In this document: positions 3,603-63,251 of the stretch, one piece after another
How the letters are laid out: every line of letters begins with the position of its first letter
Numbering within the stretch: the stretch's first letter is position 1
NCBI RefSeq assembly: GCF_018327705.1
Contig: NZ_BNEM01000002.1
Coordinates: 3,100,001-3,164,000 of the forward strand
Reading direction: 5' to 3'
DNA from: Catellatospora sp. TT07R-123
GTDB taxonomy: Bacteria; Actinomycetota; Actinomycetes; Mycobacteriales; Micromonosporaceae
DNA length: 64,000 nucleotides
The notes under the pieces: generated by a model
The model's input: the letters and a program-made list of their open reading frames with translations, nothing else
What the model was told of the DNA's origin: nothing
Database searches by the model: none
Made by a program: the position numbers and the translations under genes

Positions 3603-4091
3603 ATGACCGTGAGCACGCCCTGGCGCCGCCTGCCCGCCCCGGCCCGCGCGATCGCCCAGGCCACCGCCGACGCGGTCGCCGCGGCCCGCGCCCGCGACGA
3701 CGAGGAGCTGGACGCGGCCGCGGCCCGGCTGGCCGGGTGCGACCAGGCGCAGGTCGGCGTGGTGCTGGGCGAGGCGGTGCGGCTGCTGATCGAGCGGCTG
3801 CACCCGGACGGCCTGTCCGGCGAGGACGTCCAGGCGGTCTTCGAGCAGTGCGCCCGCGACGCCCTGGCCTGGACCGACCTGGACGTGGACACGCTGGTGA
3901 CGGTGCTGGTCGGGGCGCTGGGCGTGCACGAGCCGGGCGACACCCCGCGCAAACCGGACCCGAAGCTGCTCGACCGGCACGCGATCCTGCTGCTCGCGCA
4001 CCTGCTGGCCGGAGCGGGCGAGCCGCTGGAGCCGTACCTGACGGCGGCGTTCGCCGAGGTGTTCCGGTCCGAGACCGAGGAGATGCCCTAG
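3603..4091 (+). CDS. Hypothetical alpha-helical protein
   Basis: 162 residues, mainly helical and Ala/Leu/Glu-rich, with no signal peptide or membrane segment. Segments such as AAARARDDEELDAAAARLAG and the LLAHLLAGAGEPLEPYLTAAF helix pair suggest a small helical bundle. No family recognised. It follows the VWA gene by 35 bases in the same direction and may be co-transcribed with it. Coding is supported by strong third-position GC bias and a clean ATG-to-TAG frame. Confidence 0.65.
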   Translation: MTVSTPWRRLPAPARAIAQATADAVAAARARDDEELDAAAARLAGCDQAQVGVVLGEAVRLLIERLHPDGLSGEDVQAVFEQCARDALAWTDLDVDTLVTVLVGALGVHEPGDTPRKPDPKLLDRHAILLLAHLLAGAGEPLEPYLTAAFAEVFRSETEEMP

Positions 4092-16024: not shown

Positions 16025-18322
16025 TTACGGGAGGGCGTTGAGGAACGGCTCGTGGTTGTTCTGGAACTCCCAGCCGTAGTACTTGTCCCAGTTGATGGAC
16101 CAGGTCATCAGGCCGCGGAAGTCCGGCATGGTGCCGCCGCGCAGGGTGTACCCGCCGCAGTTCTGGTTCTTCACCAGGCAGTTGACCGCCTGCTGGACCA
16201 CCGCCGGGCCGACGTACCCGTTGCCTGCGCTGACGGCGGCCGGGGTGCCGAAACCGATCTGGTCGTCGCGCAGCGCCGGGAACATGTTGGCGGTGTTGCC
16301 CGCCACCGGGAACCCGGCCGACAGCATGTCGGTCATCGCGATGTGGAAGTCCGCGGCGCCCATGTTGTGGTACTGGTTGTCCAGGCCCATGATCGGACCC
16401 GAGTTGTAGTCCTGCACGTGCAGCACGGTGATGTCGTTGCGCATCGCGTAGATCACCGGCAGGTACGACCCGGCCCGGGTGTCGCAGCCGGAGCAGGTGC
16501 CGCCGTAGAACTGGTAGCCGAGCTGGACGAAGAACGTCTCCGGTGCCATGGTCAGCACGAACCCGGCCCCGTAGCGCGCCTTGAGGGTCTTCAGCGCCGA
16601 GATCAGGTTGACGATGACCGGGGTGGTCGGGTTCTTGAAGTCGCTGTCACCGGCGTTGAAGTACAGCGAGTGTCCCTCGAAGTCGATGTCGAGGCCGTTC
16701 AGGCCGTACTTGTCGATGATGGCGCTGACCGAGCTGACGAACGTGTCCCGGGCGGCGGTGCTGGTGAGCTGCACCTGCCCGTTGGCGCCGCCGATGGAGA
16801 TGAGCACCTTCTTGCCCTGGGCCTGCTTGGCGCGGATGGCGGCGATGAAGTCCGCTTCGGACTCCACGTTGGGGCACTCGGCCACCGGGCACTGCTTGAA
16901 CCGCACGTCACCCGAGGTGACCGAGGTCGGCTCGGCGAAGGACAGGTTGATGATGTCCCAGGCGGCCGGGACGTCGGACATGCGCAGGTAGCCCGAGCCG
17001 TTGGCGAAGCTGGCGTGCAGGTAGCCGATGAGCGCGTGCTTGGGCAGGCCCGTGTTGACGCAGCCGGTCGTGGTCGCGCTGACCGCGCCGCTCTTGGCCG
17101 ACTCACCGCTGCTGTTGTACGCCGCGACCGTGTACGAGTAGGCCGTGCACGAGGTGAGCCCGCTGATCGTCGCCGTGGTGCCGGTGACGGTGGCCTTGAC
17201 CGTGGTGCCCTCGTACACGCGGTAGCCGGTGGCGCCCGAGGAGGCGTTCCAGGACAGCGACACCGTCGTGTTGGCGGTGCCGGTGACGGTCAGGCCCGAC
17301 GGGGTCGGCGGGACGGTGGTGCAGCCCGTCGTGGTCGCGCTGACCGCGCCGCTCTTGGCCGACTCACCGCTGCTGTTGTACGCCGCCACGGTGTACGAGT
17401 GCGCCGAGCAGGTCGCCAGGCTGGAGACGGTCGCGGTGGTGCCGGCGACGGTGGCCACGACGGTGCTGCCCTCGTACACCCGGTAACCGGTGGCGCCGGA
17501 GGAGGCGTTCCACGACAGCGAGACGGAGCTGCCGGTGGTGCCGGTGACGGCCAGACCGGACGGCGTCGGCGGGACGCTGGTGCAGCCCGTCGTCGTCGCG
17601 CTGACCGCGCCGCTCTTGGCCGACTCGCCGGTGGCGTTGTACGCCGCCACGCTGTACGAGTGCGCCGAGCACGTCGCCAGGCCGGAGACCGTCGCCGAGG
17701 TGCCGGTGACCGTCGCGACGACCGTGCTGCCCTCGTAGACGCGGTAGCCGGTGACGGTGCCCGTCGAGGCGGCCCAGCTCAGGGCGATCGAGTTGTTGGT
17801 GACCGTGCCGACGACGGGGTTGCCGGGGACGCCGGGCACGCCGGTGCCGCCGGGGCCGTCGAGGCTGACGTCGTCGGCGTAGTAGGTGCCCTGGCCGTAC
17901 CAGCCGTGCAGGTAGACCTGCGCGCTGGTCTGCGAGGCGCCGGTGGTGAAGTTGACGGTCAGCTGCGTGAAGGCCGTGGCCGACGGGGTCCACGTGGACG
18001 CGCCGCCGGTGACGCCGAGGTAGACGTAGGCGCCGCGCACCCAGGCGGTCAGCACGTACGCCGTGTTGGGCTGCACCGCGACGGTCTGGGTGCACTGGGC
18101 GTTGTCCGAGCTGGACGCCGCGCCCTGCAGCGCCTTGGTGCCGCTGCGGACGGGGGTCGAGACGACGCTGCCGAGGCTGCACGACCACGGCGACAGGGTG
18201 CCGGACTCGAATCCGGGGTTGCCGAGCAGGTTCGCCGCGGACGCCGGGCTGGCGACCGCGAGCACTCCGGTCGTGACGAGCAGCGCGGCGGCGACGGCGA
18301 GCAGACGGGATCTGATGTGCAC
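16025..18322 (-). CDS. Secreted modular GH18 chitinase with three FnIII domains
   Basis: 765 residues from a GTG at 18322 that has GGAGG just upstream. A signal peptide ends near ASPASA (about residue 29). Then comes a carbohydrate-binding beta-sandwich (about 30-155, NLLGNPGFESGTLSPWSC), three fibronectin III repeats (about 165-425) with near-identical units ending SATTTGC, and a GH18 barrel (about 430-765). The GH18 signature GLDIDFEG is intact with catalytic Glu549. It should hydrolyse chitin outside the cell. Expression is probably controlled from the AT-rich palindromic region at 18370-18400. Confidence 0.94.
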   Translation of the reverse strand: MHIRSRLLAVAAALLVTTGVLAVASPASAANLLGNPGFESGTLSPWSCSLGSVVSTPVRSGTKALQGAASSSDNAQCTQTVAVQPNTAYVLTAWVRGAYVYLGVTGGASTWTPSATAFTQLTVNFTTGASQTSAQVYLHGWYGQGTYYADDVSLDGPGGTGVPGVPGNPVVGTVTNNSIALSWAASTGTVTGYRVYEGSTVVATVTGTSATVSGLATCSAHSYSVAAYNATGESAKSGAVSATTTGCTSVPPTPSGLAVTGTTGSSVSLSWNASSGATGYRVYEGSTVVATVAGTTATVSSLATCSAHSYTVAAYNSSGESAKSGAVSATTTGCTTVPPTPSGLTVTGTANTTVSLSWNASSGATGYRVYEGTTVKATVTGTTATISGLTSCTAYSYTVAAYNSSGESAKSGAVSATTTGCVNTGLPKHALIGYLHASFANGSGYLRMSDVPAAWDIINLSFAEPTSVTSGDVRFKQCPVAECPNVESEADFIAAIRAKQAQGKKVLISIGGANGQVQLTSTAARDTFVSSVSAIIDKYGLNGLDIDFEGHSLYFNAGDSDFKNPTTPVIVNLISALKTLKARYGAGFVLTMAPETFFVQLGYQFYGGTCSGCDTRAGSYLPVIYAMRNDITVLHVQDYNSGPIMGLDNQYHNMGAADFHIAMTDMLSAGFPVAGNTANMFPALRDDQIGFGTPAAVSAGNGYVGPAVVQQAVNCLVKNQNCGGYTLRGGTMPDFRGLMTWSINWDKYYGWEFQNNHEPFLNALP

Positions 18323-48423: not shown

Positions 48424-49287
48424 TTGCTGCGTGCGTATTTCGCCCGCCACAAGTCCGCGTCCACCTGGGCGCGGACCATCCTGCACGAGGCGGCGTTCGC
48501 GCTGAACCTCGACATCGTGACGATCCACGTGCCGGAGCAGTGGGCGCCGTACCCCAGCGTCGGCGACTACGTCCGCGCCACGAAGCCCGACATCCTGATC
48601 ATGACGAACGCGATGCCGGAGTGGGTGGACACGCTGCCCGAGATGCGGGCGTTCCACCTGATCCGCGACCCGCGCGACATCGTCGTGTCCGGCTACTTCA
48701 GCCACCTCAACAGCCACCCCGAGGTGGTCGGCGGCATCCCGTGGCCGGAGCTGGTCGAGCACCGGCGCAACCTGCGCACGCTCGACCAGGCCGGCGGCAT
48801 GCTCGCCGAGATCGAGTTCAGCTCGATGTTCCTGGACCCGATGGCGGGCTGGAACTACCAGCGCCCCGGCGTGCTGGAGACCCGGATGGAGGACATCACC
48901 TCCGACCCGGTGAAGATGTGGTCCAACATCCTCGGCCACCTGGAACTGCTCACCCCGGACGGCTCCGGCGAGGAGAAGGCCCGGATGGCGGCGGTGCGGT
49001 GGAATCTCGCCGCCCGGCGCGGCGCGCCGAAGCTGATGTCGTACCCCCGGACGGTCCTGCCCCGCATCCCGCTCCAGCGCCTGCCCGGAGCGTATGTGGC
49101 CGACACCAACGCGCGCTTCTCCTTCGCCAAGCTGGCCAAGGGGCGCGAGCGCGGCCAGGAGGACGTGCACAGCCACTACCGCCGCGGGGTGGCCGGCGAC
49201 TGGCGCAACCACCTCAACGACGACCACCTCGCCGCGTTCCGCAAGCGCTACGGCGACCTGGTCGAGCGCCTCGGCTACGAGTGGTGA
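48424..49287 (+). CDS. Sulfotransferase-family protein
   Basis: 287 residues, TTG start with GGAG six bases upstream. The PAPS-binding loop near the N terminus reads ARHKSASTWARTIL (like KSGTTWL) and the 3'-phosphate-binding segment is FHLIRDPRDIVVSGYFSHL (about 79-97). The C terminus has RGVAGDWRNHL, the family's GxxGDWKN motif. It likely transfers sulfate from PAPS to a small molecule or glycan; acceptor unknown. No PAPS-synthesis genes nearby. It converges with the ATP-grasp gene, with three bases between stops. Confidence 0.85.
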   Translation: MLRAYFARHKSASTWARTILHEAAFALNLDIVTIHVPEQWAPYPSVGDYVRATKPDILIMTNAMPEWVDTLPEMRAFHLIRDPRDIVVSGYFSHLNSHPEVVGGIPWPELVEHRRNLRTLDQAGGMLAEIEFSSMFLDPMAGWNYQRPGVLETRMEDITSDPVKMWSNILGHLELLTPDGSGEEKARMAAVRWNLAARRGAPKLMSYPRTVLPRIPLQRLPGAYVADTNARFSFAKLAKGRERGQEDVHSHYRRGVAGDWRNHLNDDHLAAFRKRYGDLVERLGYEW

Positions 49288-49290
49288 ACC

Positions 49291-50568
49291 TCAGCGGTCG
49301 ACCCGCTGGGCGGCTGCCCCGTTGACATGCTGGGCGGCTGCCCCGTTGACACGCAGGGCGGCCGCCGCGGCGTCGAGGGCGTCGCGGCACTCCTGCGCGG
49401 TCTGCCCCACCGCCGTGGCGAACGCGACCCGGCCGTTGACCGTGCCGGCCGGGGGCGCCGAGCGCACGTCGCCGGGCGCGGCGAGCAGCCCGGTCAGGTC
49501 GACGGCGGCCGGCAGCCCGGCCCGGTCGAACCCGATCGACTCGATCCGGGTGCCGTCCTGCTCGGGGTAGAAGAAGCGCACCGCCGCGACCAGCTTGCGG
49601 TCGGGGGCGGTCTCCGGCGCACGGCCGGTCGCCGCCGCGGCGGCCGCCAGCCCCACGTCGACTCCGGTGGCCCGCAGGCCCAGGTACGGGATCATGTCCC
49701 CGCCCAGCCGCCCGTTGACCTCGATGATGCGCGGCCCGCGCGAGGAAAGCTTGATCTCGGTATGGGTCACCCCGTCGGTGAAGCCCAGCGCCGCGTGCGC
49801 CCCGCGCAGCAGGTCGAGGATCTCCGGGTCGTGCAGCAGCGGGTCGTCGCCGTGCACGTAGTGCCCCACCTCGATGCAGTACGGCGGGTAGCCGATCTCC
49901 TTGCGGGCCAGGCACAGCGGCGTCAGCTCGCCCCGGTGTGACACCGCGTCGACGCTGATCTCCTCGCCGTCGACGTACTCCTCCAGCAGCACCACCGGGC
50001 GCCAGTCGGGCAGGGCGCCGTGGCGCTGGCCGTTGGTGAACTCGTACGCGGCGGGCAGGTCCTCGGGGCGCTCCACCTTGATCACGCCGGCGCTGAGCGC
50101 CAGCTCGCTCGGCTTGAGGATCACCGGATACCCGAACCGTGCCGCGACCTCCGCCGCCTCGGCCAGGCTGGCCACCGGCTGCGACTGGGGCTGGGCCACG
50201 CCGGCGGCCGCGAGCGCGAGCCGCGTCTGGTGCTTGTCCCGGCAGCGGGCGATCGCGGCCGGGTCGCCGATCAGCCCGAGCTCGCGGGCCAGCTCGGCAG
50301 CCTGCGGGGTGCGCGCCTCGTCCCAGGTCATCACGCCCGCCACGGGCTCGCGCGCGATGATCTCGCGGGCGGCCTCGACCAGGGGCGCCACGTCGAACAT
50401 GGGGCCGAACTCGGTCACGCCCTGGACGTACTCGTGCTCCCAGGTGGCCTGGCCGGTGACGAACATGTGCACGCGGTATTCCCGCGTCAAGGAGCGCAGC
50501 AGGTACTCCCGGAGCTCCTTGTTGCCGCTGCGTACCACGAGCAGAAGGGGCCGGTCGTCGGTCTGCAT
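49291..50568 (-). CDS. ATP-grasp ligase, L-amino-acid-ligase type
   Basis: 425 residues. Pre-ATP-grasp domain (about 1-110), then the ATP-grasp fold: GYPVILKPSELALSAGVIKV (ATP lysine), VVLLEEYVDGEEISVDAV, and the metal-binding end THTEIKLSSRGPRIIEVNGRLGGD. This pattern fits the BacD/PGM1-like carboxylate-amine ligases that form peptide bonds through an acyl phosphate. AGAGGAG precedes the ATG. Directly upstream, same strand, are a 16-bp-stem hairpin and a (REVA)6 microprotein, making a peptide substrate plausible but unproven. The C-terminal 19 residues contain a duplicated VNGAAAQ unit. Confidence 0.87.
   Translation of the reverse strand: MQTDDRPLLLVVRSGNKELREYLLRSLTREYRVHMFVTGQATWEHEYVQGVTEFGPMFDVAPLVEAAREIIAREPVAGVMTWDEARTPQAAELARELGLIGDPAAIARCRDKHQTRLALAAAGVAQPQSQPVASLAEAAEVAARFGYPVILKPSELALSAGVIKVERPEDLPAAYEFTNGQRHGALPDWRPVVLLEEYVDGEEISVDAVSHRGELTPLCLARKEIGYPPYCIEVGHYVHGDDPLLHDPEILDLLRGAHAALGFTDGVTHTEIKLSSRGPRIIEVNGRLGGDMIPYLGLRATGVDVGLAAAAAATGRAPETAPDRKLVAAVRFFYPEQDGTRIESIGFDRAGLPAAVDLTGLLAAPGDVRSAPPAGTVNGRVAFATAVGQTAQECRDALDAAAAALRVNGAAAQHVNGAAAQRVDR
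49304..49351. repeat. 24-bp tandem duplication at the 3' end of the ATP-grasp gene
   Basis: Two copies of a 24-bp unit differing at one base (GGCGGCTGCCCCGTTGACA core), encoding VNGAAAQH and VNGAAAQR. In frame, so it only lengthens the C-terminal tail; a recent slippage event. Confidence 0.85.
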
Positions 50569-50606
50569 CGATGCACTCCTCTTATTCGATTGATGTCCGG
50601 ATAGCG

Positions 50607-50641
50607 GTGAGCCCCGCCGTGGAATCCACGGCGGGGCTCAC
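50607..50641 (-). terminator. Strong hairpin between microprotein and ATP-grasp gene
   Basis: A perfect 16-bp inverted repeat (GTGAGCCCCGCCGTGG) with a 3-base loop, 30 bases after the microprotein stop and about 40 before the ATP-grasp start. No T-run follows. It may end most transcripts after the short gene and let a fraction read into the ligase gene. Confidence 0.8.
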
Positions 50642-50671
50642 CCGGTCAAGCTCTAAGGGCGCACGCCCAGC

Positions 50672-50764
50672 TCAGCGAGCAACCTCACGCGCGACCTCAC
50701 GAGCGACCTCGCGGGCGACCTCTCGGGCCACCTCACGGGCGACCTCACGCTGCGCAACCTCCAT
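50672..50764 (-). CDS. REVA-repeat microprotein, candidate peptide substrate
   Basis: 30 residues: M-E-V-A-Q, then six REVA units, then R and TGA. An AAGGAG ribosome site lies six bases before the ATG. The six repeats differ at Arg, Val and Ala wobble bases yet never change the amino acid. Glu and Arg spaced by three or four residues would favour a charged single helix. It precedes an L-amino-acid-ligase-like ATP-grasp gene on the same strand, with a strong hairpin between, as in ribosomal-peptide loci. The opposite strand reads RATS repeats in a register where wobble faces wobble, so the silent changes alone do not choose the strand; the ribosome site and exact stop favour this one. Confidence 0.62.
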   Translation of the reverse strand: MEVAQREVAREVAREVAREVAREVAREVAR

Positions 50765-50812
50765 GACGAACTCCTTCCATCAGGTGGGACCGTAGACATA
50801 GCCTCACGTGCG

Positions 50813-50829
50813 CACTCTCGGAGTGTCAA
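50813..50829 (-). promoter_or_regulatory. Candidate promoter element of the microprotein gene
   Basis: On the minus strand, TTGACA (50824-50829) runs into the inverted repeat CACTC-CGA-GAGTG (50813-50825). A -10-like TATGTC lies 23 bases further on, too far for a normal sigma70 site, so only the -35-like box and operator shape are supported. Confidence 0.4.
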
Positions 50830-50859
50830 GCGATTGCATGTTTCGATATCATTCCTTGC

Positions 50860-52113
50860 TCAGGAAAGCATCCACAGCGGTACGAAGTCGGCCATTGCCT
50901 GGTAACCGGTGTCGTTGGGGTGGATGTGGTCACCGCTGTCCCACTCGGCCCGCAGCTTCGACGGAGCGGCCGGGTCGCGCAGCAGCGCGTCGAAGTCGAT
51001 CAGACCGGCGTAGTCGTTCGCGTGCGCCCGCAGCCACGCGTTGACCGCCTGCCGGTTGGCCTCCTTCTCCGGCGTCCACGACGGGTAGCCCTCGAACGGC
51101 ATGATCGTGCAGACGACCACGTCGATGCCGGTCTCGCCGATCTGCGTGGTGAGCTGGCGCAGGCCGTCCAGGATGCGGTCGGACGACTCGTTGTGGATCT
51201 GCAGGTCGTTGACGCCCAGCAGCACCACCGCGGTCTGCGCGCCGGTCTGGCTCAGCACGTCGCGCTGCACCCGGGCCAGCGCGTTGAGGCCGAGCTCCGG
51301 GAAGCCGATCTCGGCGCCGTCGTGGACCAGGGTGTTGCCGGCCAGACCCTCGTTGAGCACGCCCCACTCGCTGTGCGACGAGTGCTGCGCGAGGGTGCGG
51401 GCGGCCAGCCGGTCGGTCCAGCGGGCGTTGCCGTTCAGCGTCGACTGGGTGCCGTCGGTGATCGAGTCGCCGATGACCACCACCGAACCCGAGGCCTTGC
51501 GGCTGAGCACGTCCACGCCGCTGAGGTAGAACCACGAGTTGCGGGTGAGGGTCAGCGTCGCCCCGGTCGCCTCGGCGGCGGTGTCACCGCTGCCGAACCA
51601 GGTGGACTGGCGCGCGGTCAGGTGGAACGTGGCCGGGCCGGTGGCGACCGGCAGGTAGATGCTGACCACCAGGTCCGACAGCTCGGCGACCGGCAGCGTC
51701 AGCGGGTCGCTGAGCACCTGGCCGCCCTTGGGGACGGTCACCGCGGCGTCGCCGTTGAACGTCAGCTCGTTCAGCGAGGCGGGCAGGATGTCGGTGAGGG
51801 TGGCGGTGCTCGCGTCGGGACGGGCCAGGGTGGCGTGGCCGACGGTCAGGGGCGCGGTGCCGAAGGTGTTCGACAGGCGGATCCGGATCGCGTCGCCGCC
51901 GACCGAGGTGTGCACGATCATGCGGATGGTCTGGTCGGTGAAGCCCGCACCGGACTGGCCGCCGCCGGCCGCGGTCGGTGCCGCCGCCCAGGTCCCGACC
52001 CATTCGCCCTTCGGCTTGGCGGTCGCTTCGCCACCCGGGCCGGCCAGCAGGAACAGGGTGGCGGCCAGCGAGGCGGCGGCGACCAGCGCCCGCCGCGGGG
52101 AGGGGTGTCTCAC
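50860..52113 (-). CDS. Secreted SGNH/GDSL hydrolase
   Basis: 417 residues, GTG start with AAGGAGG six bases upstream. A signal peptide covers about 1-32. An N-terminal beta-rich domain (about 35-205) precedes the SGNH domain: VVIGDSITDG (Ser nucleophile), EGLAGN (Gly), LGVNDLQ (Asn) and SGDHIHPND (Asp and His). This is the long actinobacterial SGNH type related to lysophospholipase L1 and acetylxylan esterases. An extracellular esterase; substrate unknown. Confidence 0.92.
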   Translation of the reverse strand: MRHPSPRRALVAAASLAATLFLLAGPGGEATAKPKGEWVGTWAAAPTAAGGGQSGAGFTDQTIRMIVHTSVGGDAIRIRLSNTFGTAPLTVGHATLARPDASTATLTDILPASLNELTFNGDAAVTVPKGGQVLSDPLTLPVAELSDLVVSIYLPVATGPATFHLTARQSTWFGSGDTAAEATGATLTLTRNSWFYLSGVDVLSRKASGSVVVIGDSITDGTQSTLNGNARWTDRLAARTLAQHSSHSEWGVLNEGLAGNTLVHDGAEIGFPELGLNALARVQRDVLSQTGAQTAVVLLGVNDLQIHNESSDRILDGLRQLTTQIGETGIDVVVCTIMPFEGYPSWTPEKEANRQAVNAWLRAHANDYAGLIDFDALLRDPAAPSKLRAEWDSGDHIHPNDTGYQAMADFVPLWMLS

Positions 52114-52319: not shown

Positions 52320-52895
52320 ATGGACCTTCGTGACCTGGATCGGCGCGCCCTGGCCGCAGCCGGTGCCGCCATCGCCCGGGTGAAGCGGGCTGACCTCAGC
52401 CGGCCCACCCCGTGCGGGGACTGGACCCTGGGAGAGCTGCTCGGACACATGATCGGCCACAACCGCGGCTTCGCCGCGGCGGCCGCGGGCAGGCCGGTCG
52501 GCGCCGAGGTCTGGGACGACCTGACCCCGCCCGCCGACCCCCGCCGGGCCTACACGGAGTCGGTGGCCCAGGTCACCAAGGCGTTCGGCTCGCGCACCCT
52601 GCTCGAACGCAAGATCGAGGTGTACGGCTACGGCACCTTCACCGCCGCCACCGTGCTCGGCATGCACTTCGTCGACTTCCTCGTGCACGGCTGGGACGTC
52701 GCCCGCGCCGTCGGCGCCCCCGGCACCCTCGACCCCGAGCTGGCCGCGTCCGCCATGACGGTCGCCCGGCGCTGGCCCACCACCCGGCCCAGCAAGGCGT
52801 TCGGGCTGATGGTCGAGCCCGACGCCGACGCCCCCGTCGGCGACCAGCTCGTCGCCTACCTGGGCAGGCGCCCCGACTGGCCCGGCGGCAGCTGA
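52320..52895 (+). CDS. TIGR03086/maleylpyruvate-isomerase-like metal-binding protein
   Basis: 191 residues. DinB-like four-helix fold with the family pattern: TPCGDWTLGELLGHMIGHNRGFA (first His of the metal triad), and HFVDFLVHGWDVARAVG (later His residues). Members are mycothiol-dependent isomerases or transferases, consistent with an actinobacterial host. AAGG lies before the ATG. Its last 40 bases overlap the 3' end of the MFS gene on the other strand. Confidence 0.88.
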   Translation: MDLRDLDRRALAAAGAAIARVKRADLSRPTPCGDWTLGELLGHMIGHNRGFAAAAAGRPVGAEVWDDLTPPADPRRAYTESVAQVTKAFGSRTLLERKIEVYGYGTFTAATVLGMHFVDFLVHGWDVARAVGAPGTLDPELAASAMTVARRWPTTRPSKAFGLMVEPDADAPVGDQLVAYLGRRPDWPGGS

Positions 52896-54484
52896 CGCGG
52901 GCCGGGCACCGGCCCGGTCGCCTCGTCCAGATCCGCCATCGTGTGTTCGAGCGCGGTGAGGTTGGCCCGCACCAGGGCCGCGCGCCGCGCCACGGCGTCG
53001 CGCTCGGCCTGGTGCACCTGCTCCACCGCCTCGCTCACCGCGGGCACGTCCAGTGCCGACACGTGCTTGAGCGCCTCCGCCGGGGTGATCGGATACGGCG
53101 GGGCCAGCTTGCGCATGCCGCGCCGGGCCGTCACCGTCCAGCCGCCCCCGGCGTAGGCCAGCGTCACCGACACCGGCACCGCCGGGCCGGTGTCGGTCAG
53201 CCCGATCCGGCGGCCGATCTCCACCGCGTACTCCTGCCACAGCGGGGGCGGCGGCAGCTCGGTGCCGGGGCGGGTGGCGGGCAGGTCGTTCAGCCCGCGC
53301 CACAGCCGCCAGCCGACGATCGGGGTCAGCGTCGCGGTGAAGTACGCCGCCGTGCCCAGCAGCAGGCCGCCGCGCAGCCCGAACGTCTCCACCGCCCAGG
53401 CGCCCACCGCCCCGCCCAGCGGGATGCCGCCGAACGTGATCGCGCCGGTCAGCCCGAACACGCGCGCCTGCATCCCGCGCGGCACCCGCTCGAACATCAG
53501 CAGGCCGTACGTCGGGTTGATCGAGCTCATGGCCACGCCCGCCACGAACGTCACCACCAGCGCCACGCGCAGGTCGTCGCTGAGCGCCAGCACCAGGAAC
53601 CGCGGCGAGCCGCCGATGAAGTAGCCGAGCACCAGCGTCGCGTACCGGGGCAGCCGGGTCACCAGCGCCGCGAACATCGCCCCGCCCGCGATCGCGCCCA
53701 GCGCGAACGCCCCGCCGATCCAGCCCAGCGCCACCGGCGAGTCCAGGTGCTCGCGCACCCACATCGGCACGAACACCACCGAGCTGGCCTGGTTGAACAG
53801 GTTGGTCACGAACATCATCCCGACCAGGCTGCGCACCAGGCGCTCCTGCCGGACGAACTCCCACCCGGCGCGCAGGCTCGCGAAGTACGACTCCTTCTCC
53901 GCCGCGGGCTTGTTCTGCTCGGCGGTCAGCCGCACCAGCACCGTGACCACCCCGGCGCAGGCGGCGAACGTGGCCGCGTCGGCCCAGATCGCCCCGACCG
54001 GGCCCAGCCAGGCGATGAGCACGCCCGCCACGGCCGCGCCGATCAGCATCGCGACCCGGCTCAGCGCGGCGAACACCGCGGTGACCCGCGCCATCGGCGT
54101 GCCCGACGCCTCCACCACCGGCGGCAGCAGCACCCGCTTGGACTTGTCGCCCACCCCGCGCAGCGCCCCGGTGACCGCGATCAGCGTGACCAGCACCGCG
54201 AAGTTGCTGCCGCCGAACGCCGCGATACCGCCCACGGTCAGCGCGCTGCCCAGATCCACCAGGATCGACACCTGGCGCACGCCGTAGCGGTCCGCCAGCG
54301 GGGTGCCGAAGATCCCGGCCAGGATGTACGGCACCGCCTCGGCGAACGCGACGACGCCGACGAGGGTCGGATCGTTCGTGGTCACCAGCACGAGCCACGG
54401 AATGGCCAGGAAGGACATCCGGGAGCCGATCGAGGAGACCAGCTCGGCGCCCAGCAGGCCGAAGAGTGCGGCTTTACGCCCCAT
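52856..54484 (-). CDS. MFS exporter with C-terminal cytoplasmic tail
   Basis: 542 residues. About twelve transmembrane helices (residues about 1-420; MFS_3/enterobactin-exporter-like) with the loop motif GTPLADRYGVRQVSILVD (GxLaDrxGrr) after helix 2. A 120-residue soluble tail follows, with a coiled-coil-like stretch SEAVEQVHQAERDAVARRAALVRANLTALEHTMADLDEA, unusual for the family. GGAGG before the ATG at 54484. Drug or metabolite efflux is inferred. Its 3' end overlaps the opposite gene by 40 bases. Confidence 0.88.
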   Translation of the reverse strand: MGRKAALFGLLGAELVSSIGSRMSFLAIPWLVLVTTNDPTLVGVVAFAEAVPYILAGIFGTPLADRYGVRQVSILVDLGSALTVGGIAAFGGSNFAVLVTLIAVTGALRGVGDKSKRVLLPPVVEASGTPMARVTAVFAALSRVAMLIGAAVAGVLIAWLGPVGAIWADAATFAACAGVVTVLVRLTAEQNKPAAEKESYFASLRAGWEFVRQERLVRSLVGMMFVTNLFNQASSVVFVPMWVREHLDSPVALGWIGGAFALGAIAGGAMFAALVTRLPRYATLVLGYFIGGSPRFLVLALSDDLRVALVVTFVAGVAMSSINPTYGLLMFERVPRGMQARVFGLTGAITFGGIPLGGAVGAWAVETFGLRGGLLLGTAAYFTATLTPIVGWRLWRGLNDLPATRPGTELPPPPLWQEYAVEIGRRIGLTDTGPAVPVSVTLAYAGGGWTVTARRGMRKLAPPYPITPAEALKHVSALDVPAVSEAVEQVHQAERDAVARRAALVRANLTALEHTMADLDEATGPVPGPRQLPPGQSGRLPR

Positions 54485-54609
54485 GGCCACCTCCGCCTCG
54501 TCGCCCGGTCGCAGCGCCACCCTACCGACCGGTTCGATCACGATCCATCGTGCGTTCCGGCCGATCGCCGACGCTTTTGCGACAACGCTCGTCGCCTTAG
54601 CATCACCGG

Positions 54610-55858: not shown

Positions 55859-56671
55859 TCAGCGGACCACTTCGGGCAGGCCGCGCAGGTAGCGCTCGTC
55901 CTCGGCCCGGACCAGCGCCCGGGGGCCGCCCGAGCGCAGCACCGTCTCCAGCGCGCGGTCGGGGTCGGCGGCGTAGTGACCGCTCGCCCAGGCCGCGTTG
56001 GCCTCGATCACCGCCCACTCCGGACGGCCGGTCTCCGGGTCGGCGAGCAGCCCGACGTCGACCACCACCGCGCTGGGCAGCGCGGGCATCCCGGGCGTGA
56101 ACAGCGCCGCCGCGAACTCGATCGCCTCGGCGCAGCGCGGGTCGTCGGCCGCGGCGTCCACCTCGCCCGCGACCGCGTACCGGGTGGCCGCCACCACGGT
56201 GCCGTCGAGCACGAACAGGCGGAACTCGGCCAGGAACAGCACGACGTCGCTGACCAGCACCGGGCTGTCGCCGTCGGCGACGTCGGGGCCGGGCAGGGCG
56301 GTGCCGTCGCGATACACCTTGGCGGGGAAGCTCTTGTCGTCCGGCGGCTTCACGAACGCCGCGCGCCGCAGCCCGCGGGCGTGGGCGAGCGTGGTGAAGA
56401 CGATGCCGCGGCGGGTCACCTCGCGCGGCAGCCGGGCCAGCCAGTCCTGGTCGGGTTCGAGCAGCCCGAGCCCGAGTTCGGCGCCGACCGCGTCGGCGAA
56501 CAGCGGCCCCGCGTAGAGGTGCGTCCCCTCCGCCTGCGCCAGTTCCGCCGGGACACGCCACTCGCGCAGTGTCTCGACTCTCATCCCCCGCCGCCGTGCG
56601 GCATCCGCGTACGCCAGGCCGCTCTCGGTCACCCGAGGCGCCAGCACCAGTACCCCCGTCACGCCCAGCAT
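55859..56671 (-). CDS. ATP-grasp-like protein, R2K type
   Basis: 270 residues. The sequence fits the small R2K ATP-grasp clade: an N-terminal Rossmann-like part (GVLVLAPRVTESGLAYADAARRRG), AFVKPPDDKSFPAKVY (candidate ATP lysine), VSDVVLFLAEFRLFVLDGTVVAATRYA and the metal-binding EANAAWASGHY at the end. Members are thought to be peptide- or tRNA-linked ligases but are largely uncharacterised. Stands alone; a dispersed palindrome lies just upstream. Weaker similarity than the ligase at 49.3 kb. Confidence 0.72.
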   Translation of the reverse strand: MLGVTGVLVLAPRVTESGLAYADAARRRGMRVETLREWRVPAELAQAEGTHLYAGPLFADAVGAELGLGLLEPDQDWLARLPREVTRRGIVFTTLAHARGLRRAAFVKPPDDKSFPAKVYRDGTALPGPDVADGDSPVLVSDVVLFLAEFRLFVLDGTVVAATRYAVAGEVDAAADDPRCAEAIEFAAALFTPGMPALPSAVVVDVGLLADPETGRPEWAVIEANAAWASGHYAADPDRALETVLRSGGPRALVRAEDERYLRGLPEVVR

Positions 56672-56726
56672 GCTGCCACGCCGCCCCCACCCCGCGCCGC
56701 CCGCTTTCCATCGGGCGGCGTCATCG

Positions 56727-56790
56727 GTGCAGTTTCGGGGAAAGTGCGCGAACGGCGGCCAAGATTCCAGCACTTTCCCCGAAACTGCAC
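56727..56790. repeat. Dispersed 64-bp palindromic element, family A, copy 4
   Basis: Starts GTGCAGTTTCGGGGAAAGTG and ends CACTTTCCCCGAAACTGCAC with AAGATTCCAG before the right arm. Nearly identical to copy 3, although 37 kb away. Confidence 0.92.
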
Positions 56791-56830
56791 CCAACGACGC
56801 CGCTGCACGAGCGACGCCGCGCACAGCGCG

Positions 56831-61007: not shown

Positions 61008-63251
61008 ATGCGGGTCCACCGCCGTCTTGCCGCTGCCGTCACCGGGCTCCTCGCGTTCGGAGCGGCACTGACGTCACCCGCGGCCGCACAGCCACCGGCC
61101 CCGGCCGCGCTGGCCGCGCAGTCGACCGGGTTCGTCGACCAGGTCGTGCTCAGCGGGCTGTCGCAGCCGACCAACCTGGAGTTCGCCCGGGACGGCCGCG
61201 TGTTCGTGGCCGAGAAGCGCGGCGTCGTCAAGGTGTACGACAGCCTCAGCGACCCCACCCCCACCGTCTTCGCCGACCTGAGCGCCCAGGTGCACCACCA
61301 GTGGGACCGGGGCCTGCTCGGCCTGGCCCTGTCCCCCGACTTCCCGGACGACCCCTGGGTCTACGTGCTCTACACCTACGACGCCCCGCCCGGCAGGACC
61401 GCGCCGTACTGGCATGACGTGTGCCGCCAGGCCAACGACGGCACCTGCCTGGTGACCTCGCGCCTGTCCCGGCTCAGAGCCTCCGGCGACGTGATGACGG
61501 GCCAGGAGGAGGTGCTGCTGAGCGGCTGGTGCCAGCAGTTCCCCAGCCACTCCGTCGGCGACCTGAAGTTCGGCCGCGACGGCAAGCTGTACGTCTCCGG
61601 CGGCGACGGCGCGAGCTTCACCGCGGTCGACTACGGGCAGCTCGGCAAGCCCGCCGACCCGTGCGGCGACCCCGACCGCGAGGGCGGCGCGCTGCGCGCC
61701 CAGGACCTGCGCACCGGCGGCGACCCGGTCGGCCTGCACGGCACCGTGCTGAGGCTGGACCCGCAGACCGGCAAGGGTGCCAAGGGCAACCCCGACGACG
61801 ACGCCGACGACGAGATCGCGCGGCGCATCGTCGCGTACGGCCTGCGCAACCCGTTCCGGTTCACCGCCCGGCCCGGCACCGACGAGCTGTGGATCTCCGA
61901 TGTCGGCTGGAACGGCTACGAGGAGATCAACCGGCTGAAGAAGCCCACCGACAAGCTCGCGAACTTCGGCTGGCCCTGCTACGAGGGCCCGGACCGGATG
62001 CGCAGCTACGACAACGCCGACCTGCCGATCTGCGAGTCCCTGTACGCCTCCGGCGACGCCAGGGCGCCGTTCTTCGCGTACTCGCACACCGCGCCGGTCA
62101 CCCCGGGCGACGGCTGCGGCACCAGCGCCGGGGGCGCGGCCGGGGCCGAGCTGTTCTACCCGGCCAAGGGCGGCAGCTGGCCCGACGAGTACCGCGGTGC
62201 GCTGCTGTTCGCCGACTACCCGCGCGACTGCGTGTGGGCGATGCTCGCCGACGACCCCGGCGACACCCCCTCGACCGACGGCATCCAGGTGCTGCTGCGC
62301 GGCACCACCTCGGTGACCGACCTGGCGCTGGGCCCGGACGGCGACGTCTACTTCACCTCGCGCACCGGCAGCGTGCACCGCATCCGGCACCGCGACGGCA
62401 ACGAGGCGCCGACCGCGTACTTCACCGCGCGCCCGACCTCGGGCCCGGTGCCGCTGACCGTCGAGTTCGACGCGGGCACCTCCAGCGACACCGACGCCTT
62501 CGACGCCGCCGGGCTGACCTACCGGTGGGACTTCACCAGCGACGGGAGCTGGGACGCCGACGGCAGGTCGGTGCGCCACACGTACCCGCAGGCGGGCCGG
62601 TTCGCGGCGAAGCTGCGGGTCACCGACGCCCTGGGCGCCTACGACGAGCACACCGTGTCGATCCGGGCCGGAGGTTCGGCCCCGGTCGCGGTCATCGACT
62701 CGCCGAAGGCCGGGCGGACCTGGGGCGTCGGCGAGAAGCTGACCTTCGGCGGCCACGCCACCGACCCCGACCAGGGCAGGCTGCCCGCCTCGGCGCTGAC
62801 CTGGCAGCTGCGGTTGCAGCACTGCGCCGACGGCGGCGGCTGCCACACCCACGTCGTCAGCGATGTCACCGGGGTAGCCGAGGGCACGATCGAGGGGCCG
62901 GACCACGAGTACCCGTCATACCTGGAGCTGGCCCTCACCGCCACCGACGCCGACGGGCTGAGCAGCACCGTGGTGCGGCGCCTGGACCCGAAGGCCGTCG
63001 AGCTCGACTTCCGGACCGAGCCGGCGGGGCTGGAGCTGACGGTCGGGTCGTACACGGGCCGCACGCCGTTCACCCGGGAGATGATCCAGGGAGCGAGCAC
63101 CACGGTCTCGGCGGGCAGCCCGCAGGGCGACGGCGGCGACACGTACGCCTGGCGCTCCTGGTCGGACAAGGGCCGGGCCACCCACGTGGTGAAGGCGCCC
63201 GCGGGCGGGCGCACGTTCACCGCCGTCTTCGCGAAGCAGGACGGCCGTTAG
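61008..63251 (+). CDS. Secreted PQQ-type sugar dehydrogenase with PKD domain
   Basis: 747 residues. A signal peptide (about 1-27, ends AAA/AQP) precedes a six-bladed beta-propeller like soluble glucose dehydrogenase GdhB (about 45-465): GLSQPTNLEFARDGRVFVAEKRGVV, GLLGLALSPDF, HSVGDLKFGRDGKLYVSGGDG, YGLRNPFRF and DVGWNGYEEIN. A PKD domain follows (about 470-550), then a C-terminal beta domain. Probably oxidises or binds sugars outside the cell. GAGGAG before the ATG. Its stop overlaps the stop of the converging ABC gene. Confidence 0.88.
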   Translation: MRVHRRLAAAVTGLLAFGAALTSPAAAQPPAPAALAAQSTGFVDQVVLSGLSQPTNLEFARDGRVFVAEKRGVVKVYDSLSDPTPTVFADLSAQVHHQWDRGLLGLALSPDFPDDPWVYVLYTYDAPPGRTAPYWHDVCRQANDGTCLVTSRLSRLRASGDVMTGQEEVLLSGWCQQFPSHSVGDLKFGRDGKLYVSGGDGASFTAVDYGQLGKPADPCGDPDREGGALRAQDLRTGGDPVGLHGTVLRLDPQTGKGAKGNPDDDADDEIARRIVAYGLRNPFRFTARPGTDELWISDVGWNGYEEINRLKKPTDKLANFGWPCYEGPDRMRSYDNADLPICESLYASGDARAPFFAYSHTAPVTPGDGCGTSAGGAAGAELFYPAKGGSWPDEYRGALLFADYPRDCVWAMLADDPGDTPSTDGIQVLLRGTTSVTDLALGPDGDVYFTSRTGSVHRIRHRDGNEAPTAYFTARPTSGPVPLTVEFDAGTSSDTDAFDAAGLTYRWDFTSDGSWDADGRSVRHTYPQAGRFAAKLRVTDALGAYDEHTVSIRAGGSAPVAVIDSPKAGRTWGVGEKLTFGGHATDPDQGRLPASALTWQLRLQHCADGGGCHTHVVSDVTGVAEGTIEGPDHEYPSYLELALTATDADGLSSTVVRRLDPKAVELDFRTEPAGLELTVGSYTGRTPFTREMIQGASTTVSAGSPQGDGGDTYAWRSWSDKGRATHVVKAPAGGRTFTAVFAKQDGR

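Follow-up and report, generated by a model that had tools for sequence, protein, structure and literature searches.

The short open reading frame (ORF) at positions 50672-50764 of the minus strand in the window, that is, the whole 64,000-nucleotide stretch of the 9.17 Mb genome of Catellatospora sp. TT07R-123 analyzed here, is a genuine gene and belongs to a family of 23 short repeat ORFs, of 21 to 50 codons each, found in 16 Micromonosporaceae genomes (11 Catellatospora, 2 Longispora, Rhizocola, Allorhizocola and the genome G019). With a probability of roughly 0.6, members of this family are ribosomally made, perhaps multi-core, precursor peptides, which an ATP-grasp ligase would join to a building block made by a separate biosynthetic gene cluster.

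The translation of 50672-50764 on the minus strand is MEVAQREVAREVAREVAREVAREVAREVAR*, a 30 amino acid peptide that consists of MEVAQ, six REVA units and a final R, exactly as it had been read in the original prediction; it is composed of M, E, V, A, Q and R only. The predicted AAGGAG ribosome-binding site was found at 50771-50776 (minus strand), 6 nt 5' of the ATG and thus at the expected spacing, and is identical in two relatives. Further upstream on the same strand, comparison by eye points to a putative -35 element, TTGACA (50824-50829), paired with a -10-like element, GAGGCT (50800-50805). Tandem Repeats Finder (TRF) identified a 12-bp array at 50682-50749 with 5.7 copies and a score of 101. 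Among the six units that encode REVA, all 29 pairwise base differences fall at the third positions of the Arg (9), Val (9) and Ala (11) codons and the remaining nine columns are invariant, so that the silent wobble variation described earlier is borne out. The ORF is followed, 29 nt after its stop codon, by a terminator-like hairpin (50606-50642, minus strand) with an 18-bp perfect inverted repeat, which separates it from an ATP-grasp gene; comparison of its stem with those of two relatives (Catellatospora sp. KI3 and C. tritici) showed paired changes. Since the start codon, the ribosome site, the frame and a matching hairpin recur in these two other species with different repeat numbers, the ORF is not a chance occurrence.

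Among the 11 Catellatospora genomes, the ORF directly precedes the ATP-grasp gene in three, namely the window genome, sp. KI3 (MEVAQREVAREVAREIEAAREVAAL) and C. tritici (MEVAQREVAREVAREVAREVAAL); the latter two loci share the ribosome site of the window locus and resemble it in their promoter-like stretch and in the presence of a hairpin. Each of the two Longispora species carries two loci with a repeat ORF before an ATP-grasp gene (MTRREVDPSTSDAKFEVEVREVAFEVEVREVAL and MREVEPQIKDLGFREVEPQVKDLGFEMEPQLKDAPLPEAR in L. albida, MARFEVDPSGALTKFSEVDPSGALTKFSEVDPSGALTKFSEVSPGRTLSL and MRIEIEPQVKDAGFRIEDEPQIKFESEPQVKEAAAA in the second species, G095), and the order of peptide gene, hairpin and ATP-grasp gene is common to three Catellatospora loci and to two loci in each Longispora. 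At one locus per Longispora species, a second, tandem peptide gene was found (MREVEPQIKDQVAQLRFEAEPQIKDAPLPEAR and MARREVTPGSFELNFEVNPGTFDVNFEVSGSVALNFEVEPQAAL); these tandem variants, one pair per species, are located at L198:19227-19361 and L169:4702-4854, and at L080:3372-3470 and 3801-3923, and each gene has its own hairpin. Homologous small ORFs with an intact frame and different repeat numbers thus do precede orthologous ATP-grasp genes, an outcome on which the original prediction had staked itself. All 23 family ORFs have a ribosome-site-like stretch, with weaker versions (AAGGG or GGAGA) at the B loci of Longispora. A hairpin lies within 100 nt 3' of every one of the 23 genes; a hairpin as strong was obtained in 0 of 60 shuffles for 18 genes and in 1 of 60 for the other 5.

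The peptides vary in copy number and in unit length (4 to 12 residues), and a Glu-Val/Ile core is recurrent. Repeat units in relatives of the window ORF include EVAKR, EVDPSGALTKFS, FEVEVREVA and EVEPQxKDLGF; unlike the window peptide, other members contain Lys, Ser or Thr, and Pro and Gly occur within the repeats of the Longispora members. The family is fast-changing. With units of 4, 5, 9 and 12 residues, the Glu-Val/Ile core, the start codon and the ribosome site nevertheless persist, which upholds the earlier proposal that the protein rather than the DNA is conserved.

In the other eight Catellatospora, no repeat ORF adjoins the ATP-grasp gene. Inspection by eye of these eight loci showed that four retain a stretch resembling the putative promoter of the window upstream of the ATP-grasp gene, that a lipase gene adjoins the ATP-grasp gene in two and that neither arrangement is clear in two. 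An inverted repeat, GCGGGATCGGC...GCCGATCCCGC, overlaps the promoter-like stretch upstream of the ATP-grasp gene at L009, L010, L012 and L013 (with a different first base in L013) and is possibly an operator in these four ORF-less Catellatospora. Loss of the peptide from the eight genomes, which would have argued against a role as substrate, was considered and rejected, as all eight encode a relative elsewhere, e.g., MEVAKKEVAKREVAKREVAQREVDGVIA; weak DNA matches (E 0.001 to 0.014) revealed such a gene in four of them and an alignment search did so in all eight. The proposed placement of the ORF beside an ATP-grasp gene therefore holds for three Catellatospora and two Longispora, but in 8 of the 11 Catellatospora the peptide is encoded at a distance. 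The window genome itself encodes a second family peptide, MEVSKEVSKEVSKREVDGLVAN (L253:19440-19508, minus strand; near 3.049 Mb of contig C1), in divergent orientation to an FMN-dehydrogenase gene, and KI3 (MEVGKEVAKEVAKREVDGIVNAA) and C. tritici (MEVGKEVGKEVGKREVDGIVAN) likewise encode a second one. The cluster peptides of Catellatospora have a more constant tail, REVDGVVA, and either this tail or the entire repeat array may be the core. Family peptides were also found in Rhizocola (MSEVAKEVAKEVAREVATSLE), Allorhizocola (MAEVEKEVSREVEKREVEVGL) and G019 (MEVAKEVAKEVARREVEGAVLAVREIEGAVQ). G019 additionally carries, on L173, an 11-codon ORF, MDYEEIAADKA, with a strong ribosome site 237 nt before its ATP-grasp match and with a hairpin at a distance downstream, before the ATP-grasp gene; this ORF is non-repetitive and is not counted among the 23.

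The upstream regions that were read comprised 79 of 80 ATP-grasp loci (L047 starts inside the gene), 18 further stretches and 19 more loci. Outside Catellatospora and Longispora, no repeat ORF was found directly before an ATP-grasp gene in these loci, which include ATP-grasp relatives of Streptomyces, Pseudonocardiales and other Micromonosporaceae. An internal-repeat test of 213 short upstream ORFs yielded 15 at p < 0.03, of which 10 were family genes or their other frames or starts and 5 were unrelated; the main L066 ORF is missing from this list, perhaps because a longer in-frame start came first. When 694,941 bases were scanned for short ORFs that combine a ribosome site with multiple E-V or E-I pairs, at a density threshold that passed over some known members, 10 ORFs were retrieved, nine from the family and one unrelated (62348-62491 in the window). 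The alignment search of 354 family genomes gave matches at E <= 0.01 in all 11 Catellatospora and in 12 other genomes; a lack of matches in this search does not establish absence, as the known peptide genes of Longispora, Rhizocola, Allorhizocola and G019 escaped it. Four of the 12 non-Catellatospora matches (best E 1.8e-6, within a 181-codon frame) were scanned and contained no family ORF. Weak REVA-like matches were obtained in 13 of 300 genomes; 11 of these loci were read with a crude pattern, and four showed REVA- or REAA-like runs without signs of a gene. These four runs were dismissed as chance, with the exception of the run in G076, which on later reading proved to be the Rhizocola family gene. 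In the literature searched, largely without subscription papers, no description of this peptide family was recognized.

The presumed partner enzyme, encoded at 49291-50568 (minus strand), is an L-amino-acid-ligase-type ATP-grasp ligase as judged by Pfam, nearest structures and fold. Pfam searches matched ATP-grasp_4 (3.5e-18), and LAL_C2 was matched with 25.3 bits, below the cut-off of 29.4; among the relatives, LAL_C2 reached 50.0 bits in L080 and had no match in L066. By sequence, the closest proteins of solved structure are BL00235 and BacD, and these are also the best fold matches (Foldseek E about 1e-28) of a structural model with a mean pLDDT of 88, so that the enzyme combines an ATP-grasp domain with the L-amino acid ligase fold, with LAL_C2 sub-threshold in the window protein. 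When 95 ATP-grasp proteins were placed in a tree, a branch with 100/99 support split 14 rows from 80 others; the 14 comprise the seven loci with a preceding repeat ORF, five other Catellatospora, G019 and Rhizocola. The 95th row, a remote outgroup with a very long branch, joins the side of these 14, which leaves the rooting uncertain and does not establish a single clade. Eight of the 11 Catellatospora are represented in the tree; the proteins of the remaining three are 72-73% identical to the window protein and that of Allorhizocola, a fragment, is 65% identical. A sulfotransferase-like gene (48424-49287, plus strand) is convergent with the ATP-grasp gene, an arrangement that Rhizocola, Allorhizocola and all seven of the compared loci from Catellatospora retain (56-87% identity).

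The dN/dS ratios of the ATP-grasp gene were 0.27-0.37 among the three carriers of a neighboring ORF, 0.14-0.32 among five of the eight other Catellatospora and 0.42-0.61 between the groups. These ratios indicate purifying selection in the five Catellatospora without a neighboring ORF, and the enzyme may have shifted between the carrier and non-carrier groups. As the enzyme is conserved without a neighboring ORF, it has to rely on the cluster-encoded peptide in trans or on something else; its retention in carriers and non-carriers is consistent with a trans-acting peptide. A family peptide is present in all 16 genomes found to carry the repeat-associated ATP-grasp group; because these genomes are related, this does not represent 16 independent events. 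By comparison, aminotransferase matches occur in 164 genomes, and the neighborhoods were read in 31. In twelve genomes that have a close aminotransferase (62-71% identity) and lack this ATP-grasp group, no peptide ORF was found within the 11.5-12.5 kb around the aminotransferase gene; FMN dehydrogenase adjoins the aminotransferase in 10 of the 12. Three genomes with a 55-59% identical aminotransferase likewise had no peptide ORF in the stretch around it. The aminotransferase and FMN-dehydrogenase pair thus also occurs without the peptide, which counts against the precursor reading.

The family is linked to a biosynthetic gene cluster. In all 14 genomes outside Longispora, a peptide gene is divergent from the FMN-dehydrogenase gene at a distance of 112-350 nt, and an aminotransferase gene was seen after the dehydrogenase in 13 of the 14 stretches, with G006 placed by an aminotransferase search. 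In both Longispora, FMN dehydrogenase and then aminotransferase genes lie at locus A upstream of the peptide gene(s) and the ATP-grasp gene. An order common to Longispora locus A and to the main cluster of both the window genome and G010 (58-75% identity, ten genes compared) comprises an AMP-forming ligase, a pair of small carrier-like proteins, a ketosynthase followed by an AvaA6-like ligase, another ketosynthase and a 4-hydroxyphenylpyruvate dioxygenase (HPPD)-like dioxygenase. The carrier-like proteins had no Pfam match and were named from their sequence; the alpha/beta hydrolase of the cluster is also present in the second Longispora and was unmatched in L. albida, and part of the gene set was found in C. 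tritici, Rhizocola and G019. The HPPD-like protein scored 378.5 bits against TIGR01263, above the curated HPPD cut-off of 277, which speaks for an apparently ordinary HPPD rather than a hydroxymandelate synthase. Going by known pathways, FMN dehydrogenase, aminotransferase and the HPPD-like enzyme together could supply a phenylglycine-type amino acid. An adenylating enzyme gene that adjoins three ATP-grasp loci was also considered and proved uninformative, as each of the 11 Catellatospora contains 2 to 4 matches (E <= 1e-60). In G095, an FxsB-family radical SAM/SPASM peptide maturase (TIGR04269, 489 bits) is encoded at L198:11343-12539 (minus strand), about 4 kb before the locus-A FMN dehydrogenase.

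Two further genes of the window have counterparts in or near this genome's main cluster. A putative GDSL esterase/lipase gene upstream of the ORF (50860-52113, minus strand) encodes a product 50% identical over 359 aa to the GDSL protein near the main cluster, and that of a putative MFS transporter gene (52856-54541, minus strand) is 47% identical over 523 aa to an MFS protein inside it. On account of these identities, the window probably contains a satellite of the main cluster. The best match of the window MFS protein in both Longispora lies near locus A (46%), with other copies nearly as similar (42-45%). A second ATP-grasp gene, of the R2K clade, is located a few genes away (55859-56824, minus strand), and a 261-bp tandem repeat with 2.7 copies and 86% matches occupies positions 17060-17753.

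Taken as a precursor, the ORF would encode a ribosomally made peptide whose Glu-Val-Ala-Arg units, or the corresponding repeat units in relatives, would be the substrate of the L-amino-acid-ligase-type ATP-grasp enzyme. This enzyme may couple the peptide through an amide bond to an unusual building block, either amino or acyl; the site on the peptide would most likely be the amino group of a Glu-Val... fragment after its release, or a Glu side chain. The building block would come from the conserved cluster at another chromosomal site, with its FMN dehydrogenase, aminotransferase, HPPD-like dioxygenase, ketosynthases, carrier-like proteins and adenylating enzymes, and the MFS pump could export the product. 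The gene signature, the family, its partnership with one ATP-grasp group and its link to the cluster follow from the data above, and modification, cleavage, the bond and the product are what we infer. In operons of a precursor and its enzyme, a hairpin that sets an excess of precursor over enzyme is common, and the strong hairpin after the ORF may likewise provide peptide in excess over the enzyme. The functional side chains of the window peptide are confined to Glu, Arg and Gln and no protease could be assigned, two points against the precursor reading.

A different function, in which a small, unmodified, charged helix of E, K, R, V and A residues binds, activates or localizes the ATP-grasp or another cluster enzyme and never enters the product, is unlikely. 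The salt-bridge spacing of the EVAK and REVA repeats and the co-occurrence with the ATP-grasp group would suit such a helper, as would the failure to identify a dedicated protease. The Longispora repeats, with their Pro and Gly, would by contrast hardly be helical, and free change in repeat number and outer residues together with tandem variant genes would be expected more of precursors. The original prediction had left the choice between a salt-bridged helix and a multi-core precursor; the cluster linkage appears to favor the precursor, while a helix may form from EVAK or REVA units but could hardly be the common function.

Control of the ATP-grasp gene in cis, by translation of the ORF governing read-through of the hairpin (attenuation), was also weighed. 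All seven ORF/ATP-grasp pairs folded do have a strong terminator-like hairpin in between, but in each of the seven the minimum-energy fold of the complete leader retains this hairpin, which no competitor displaces; the best competing pairing found for its 5' arm is always weaker, by about 9 to 22 kcal/mol. (The automatic choice of region to fold took too large a region for two of the seven pairs, KI3 and Longispora sp. locus A, and also for G019.) The ORF has no run of a single regulatory amino acid, and in 14 genomes (11 Catellatospora, Rhizocola, Allorhizocola and G019) a family gene followed by a hairpin of its own is located apart from the ATP-grasp gene, so that a cis-acting leader cannot be the common function; such an attenuator is very unlikely. 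More improbable still is a function that resides in a non-coding DNA or RNA repeat or in the opposite strand, which, as noted originally, reads RATS repeats. The RATS frame is open in all three Catellatospora with an ORF beside the ATP-grasp gene and synonymy alone therefore cannot pick the strand; the minus strand was chosen because its start codon and ribosome site are retained in relatives, where the reading frame is also kept despite differing unit lengths. No Rfam match at the gathering threshold was found in 50300-51200.

If the precursor reading is true, L-amino-acid-ligase-type ATP-grasp enzymes, relatives of which were found in 60 of 61 genomes searched (E <= 0.001), would be tied to ribosomal peptides. 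That the family represents a new ribosomal class, in which such an enzyme joins a multi-copy Glu-Val peptide to the product of HPPD-like, FMN-dehydrogenase, aminotransferase and ketosynthase enzymes, and in which repeat number and variant genes diversify the outcome, is in our estimate an even bet. The family would also illustrate how short precursor genes can be (21-50 codons), a size that gene callers can miss. Peptide and ligase would make up a genetically simple system of two genes, for which 16 genomes offer natural variants, and its chemistry is directly testable.

A short gene, translation signals and a companion candidate modifying enzyme, which together characterize precursors of ribosomally synthesized and post-translationally modified peptides (RiPPs), were found for all 23 ORFs in the 16 genomes. 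In pheganomycin biosynthesis, one ribosomal precursor holds several cores. The ATP-grasp ligase of that pathway, PGM1, is described as coupling a small core peptide to the nonproteinogenic phenyl-guanidinoacetic acid (PMC8939145), and the ligase proposed here would similarly join a ribosomal peptide to an unusual building block. The two systems differ in that none of the 10 Pfam matches of the window enzyme is named for PGM1 and its nearest solved structures are BL00235 and BacD; judged by these Pfam names and structures rather than by alignment with PGM1, the window enzyme falls outside the PGM1 family. The building-block genes also differ, being HPPD-like, FMN-dehydrogenase and aminotransferase genes here. 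Thiovarsolins are the products of the var cluster of Streptomyces varsoviensis. The account of that cluster describes a precursor, varA, whose imperfect repeats vary in number, an ATP-grasp gene, varL, and an MFS gene, varP, as well as the use of YcaO and TfuA proteins (PMC6511847). A repeating precursor, an ATP-grasp ligase and an MFS transporter are, to judge from that account, common to both systems; unlike the var cluster, the annotated subset of the cluster genes here includes no YcaO or TfuA protein.

Graspetide ATP-grasp ligases are RimK/MvdC-like, whereas both sequence and fold place the window enzyme closest to the L-amino acid ligases and, on these grounds, outside the graspetide type. 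A short precursor gene adjoining an ATP-grasp gene is a feature that graspetides share with the present family. Some graspetide precursors are described as containing several core repeats, and the enzymes as forming lactone and lactam links between side chains (PMC8939145). The window peptide, in contrast, has no Thr, Ser or Lys and so lacks the core residues for such side-chain cross-links. BacD and BL00235 are the nearest solved relatives of the window enzyme by both sequence and fold. They couple free amino acids and are not known to act together with a ribosomal peptide. The decRiPPter study reports candidate clusters whose ATP-grasp genes do not resemble those of microviridin and pheganomycin (PMC7794033). 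Overall, the precursor reading would, by analogy, resemble pheganomycin biosynthesis and the repeating precursor of the var cluster, but with a ligase of a different family.
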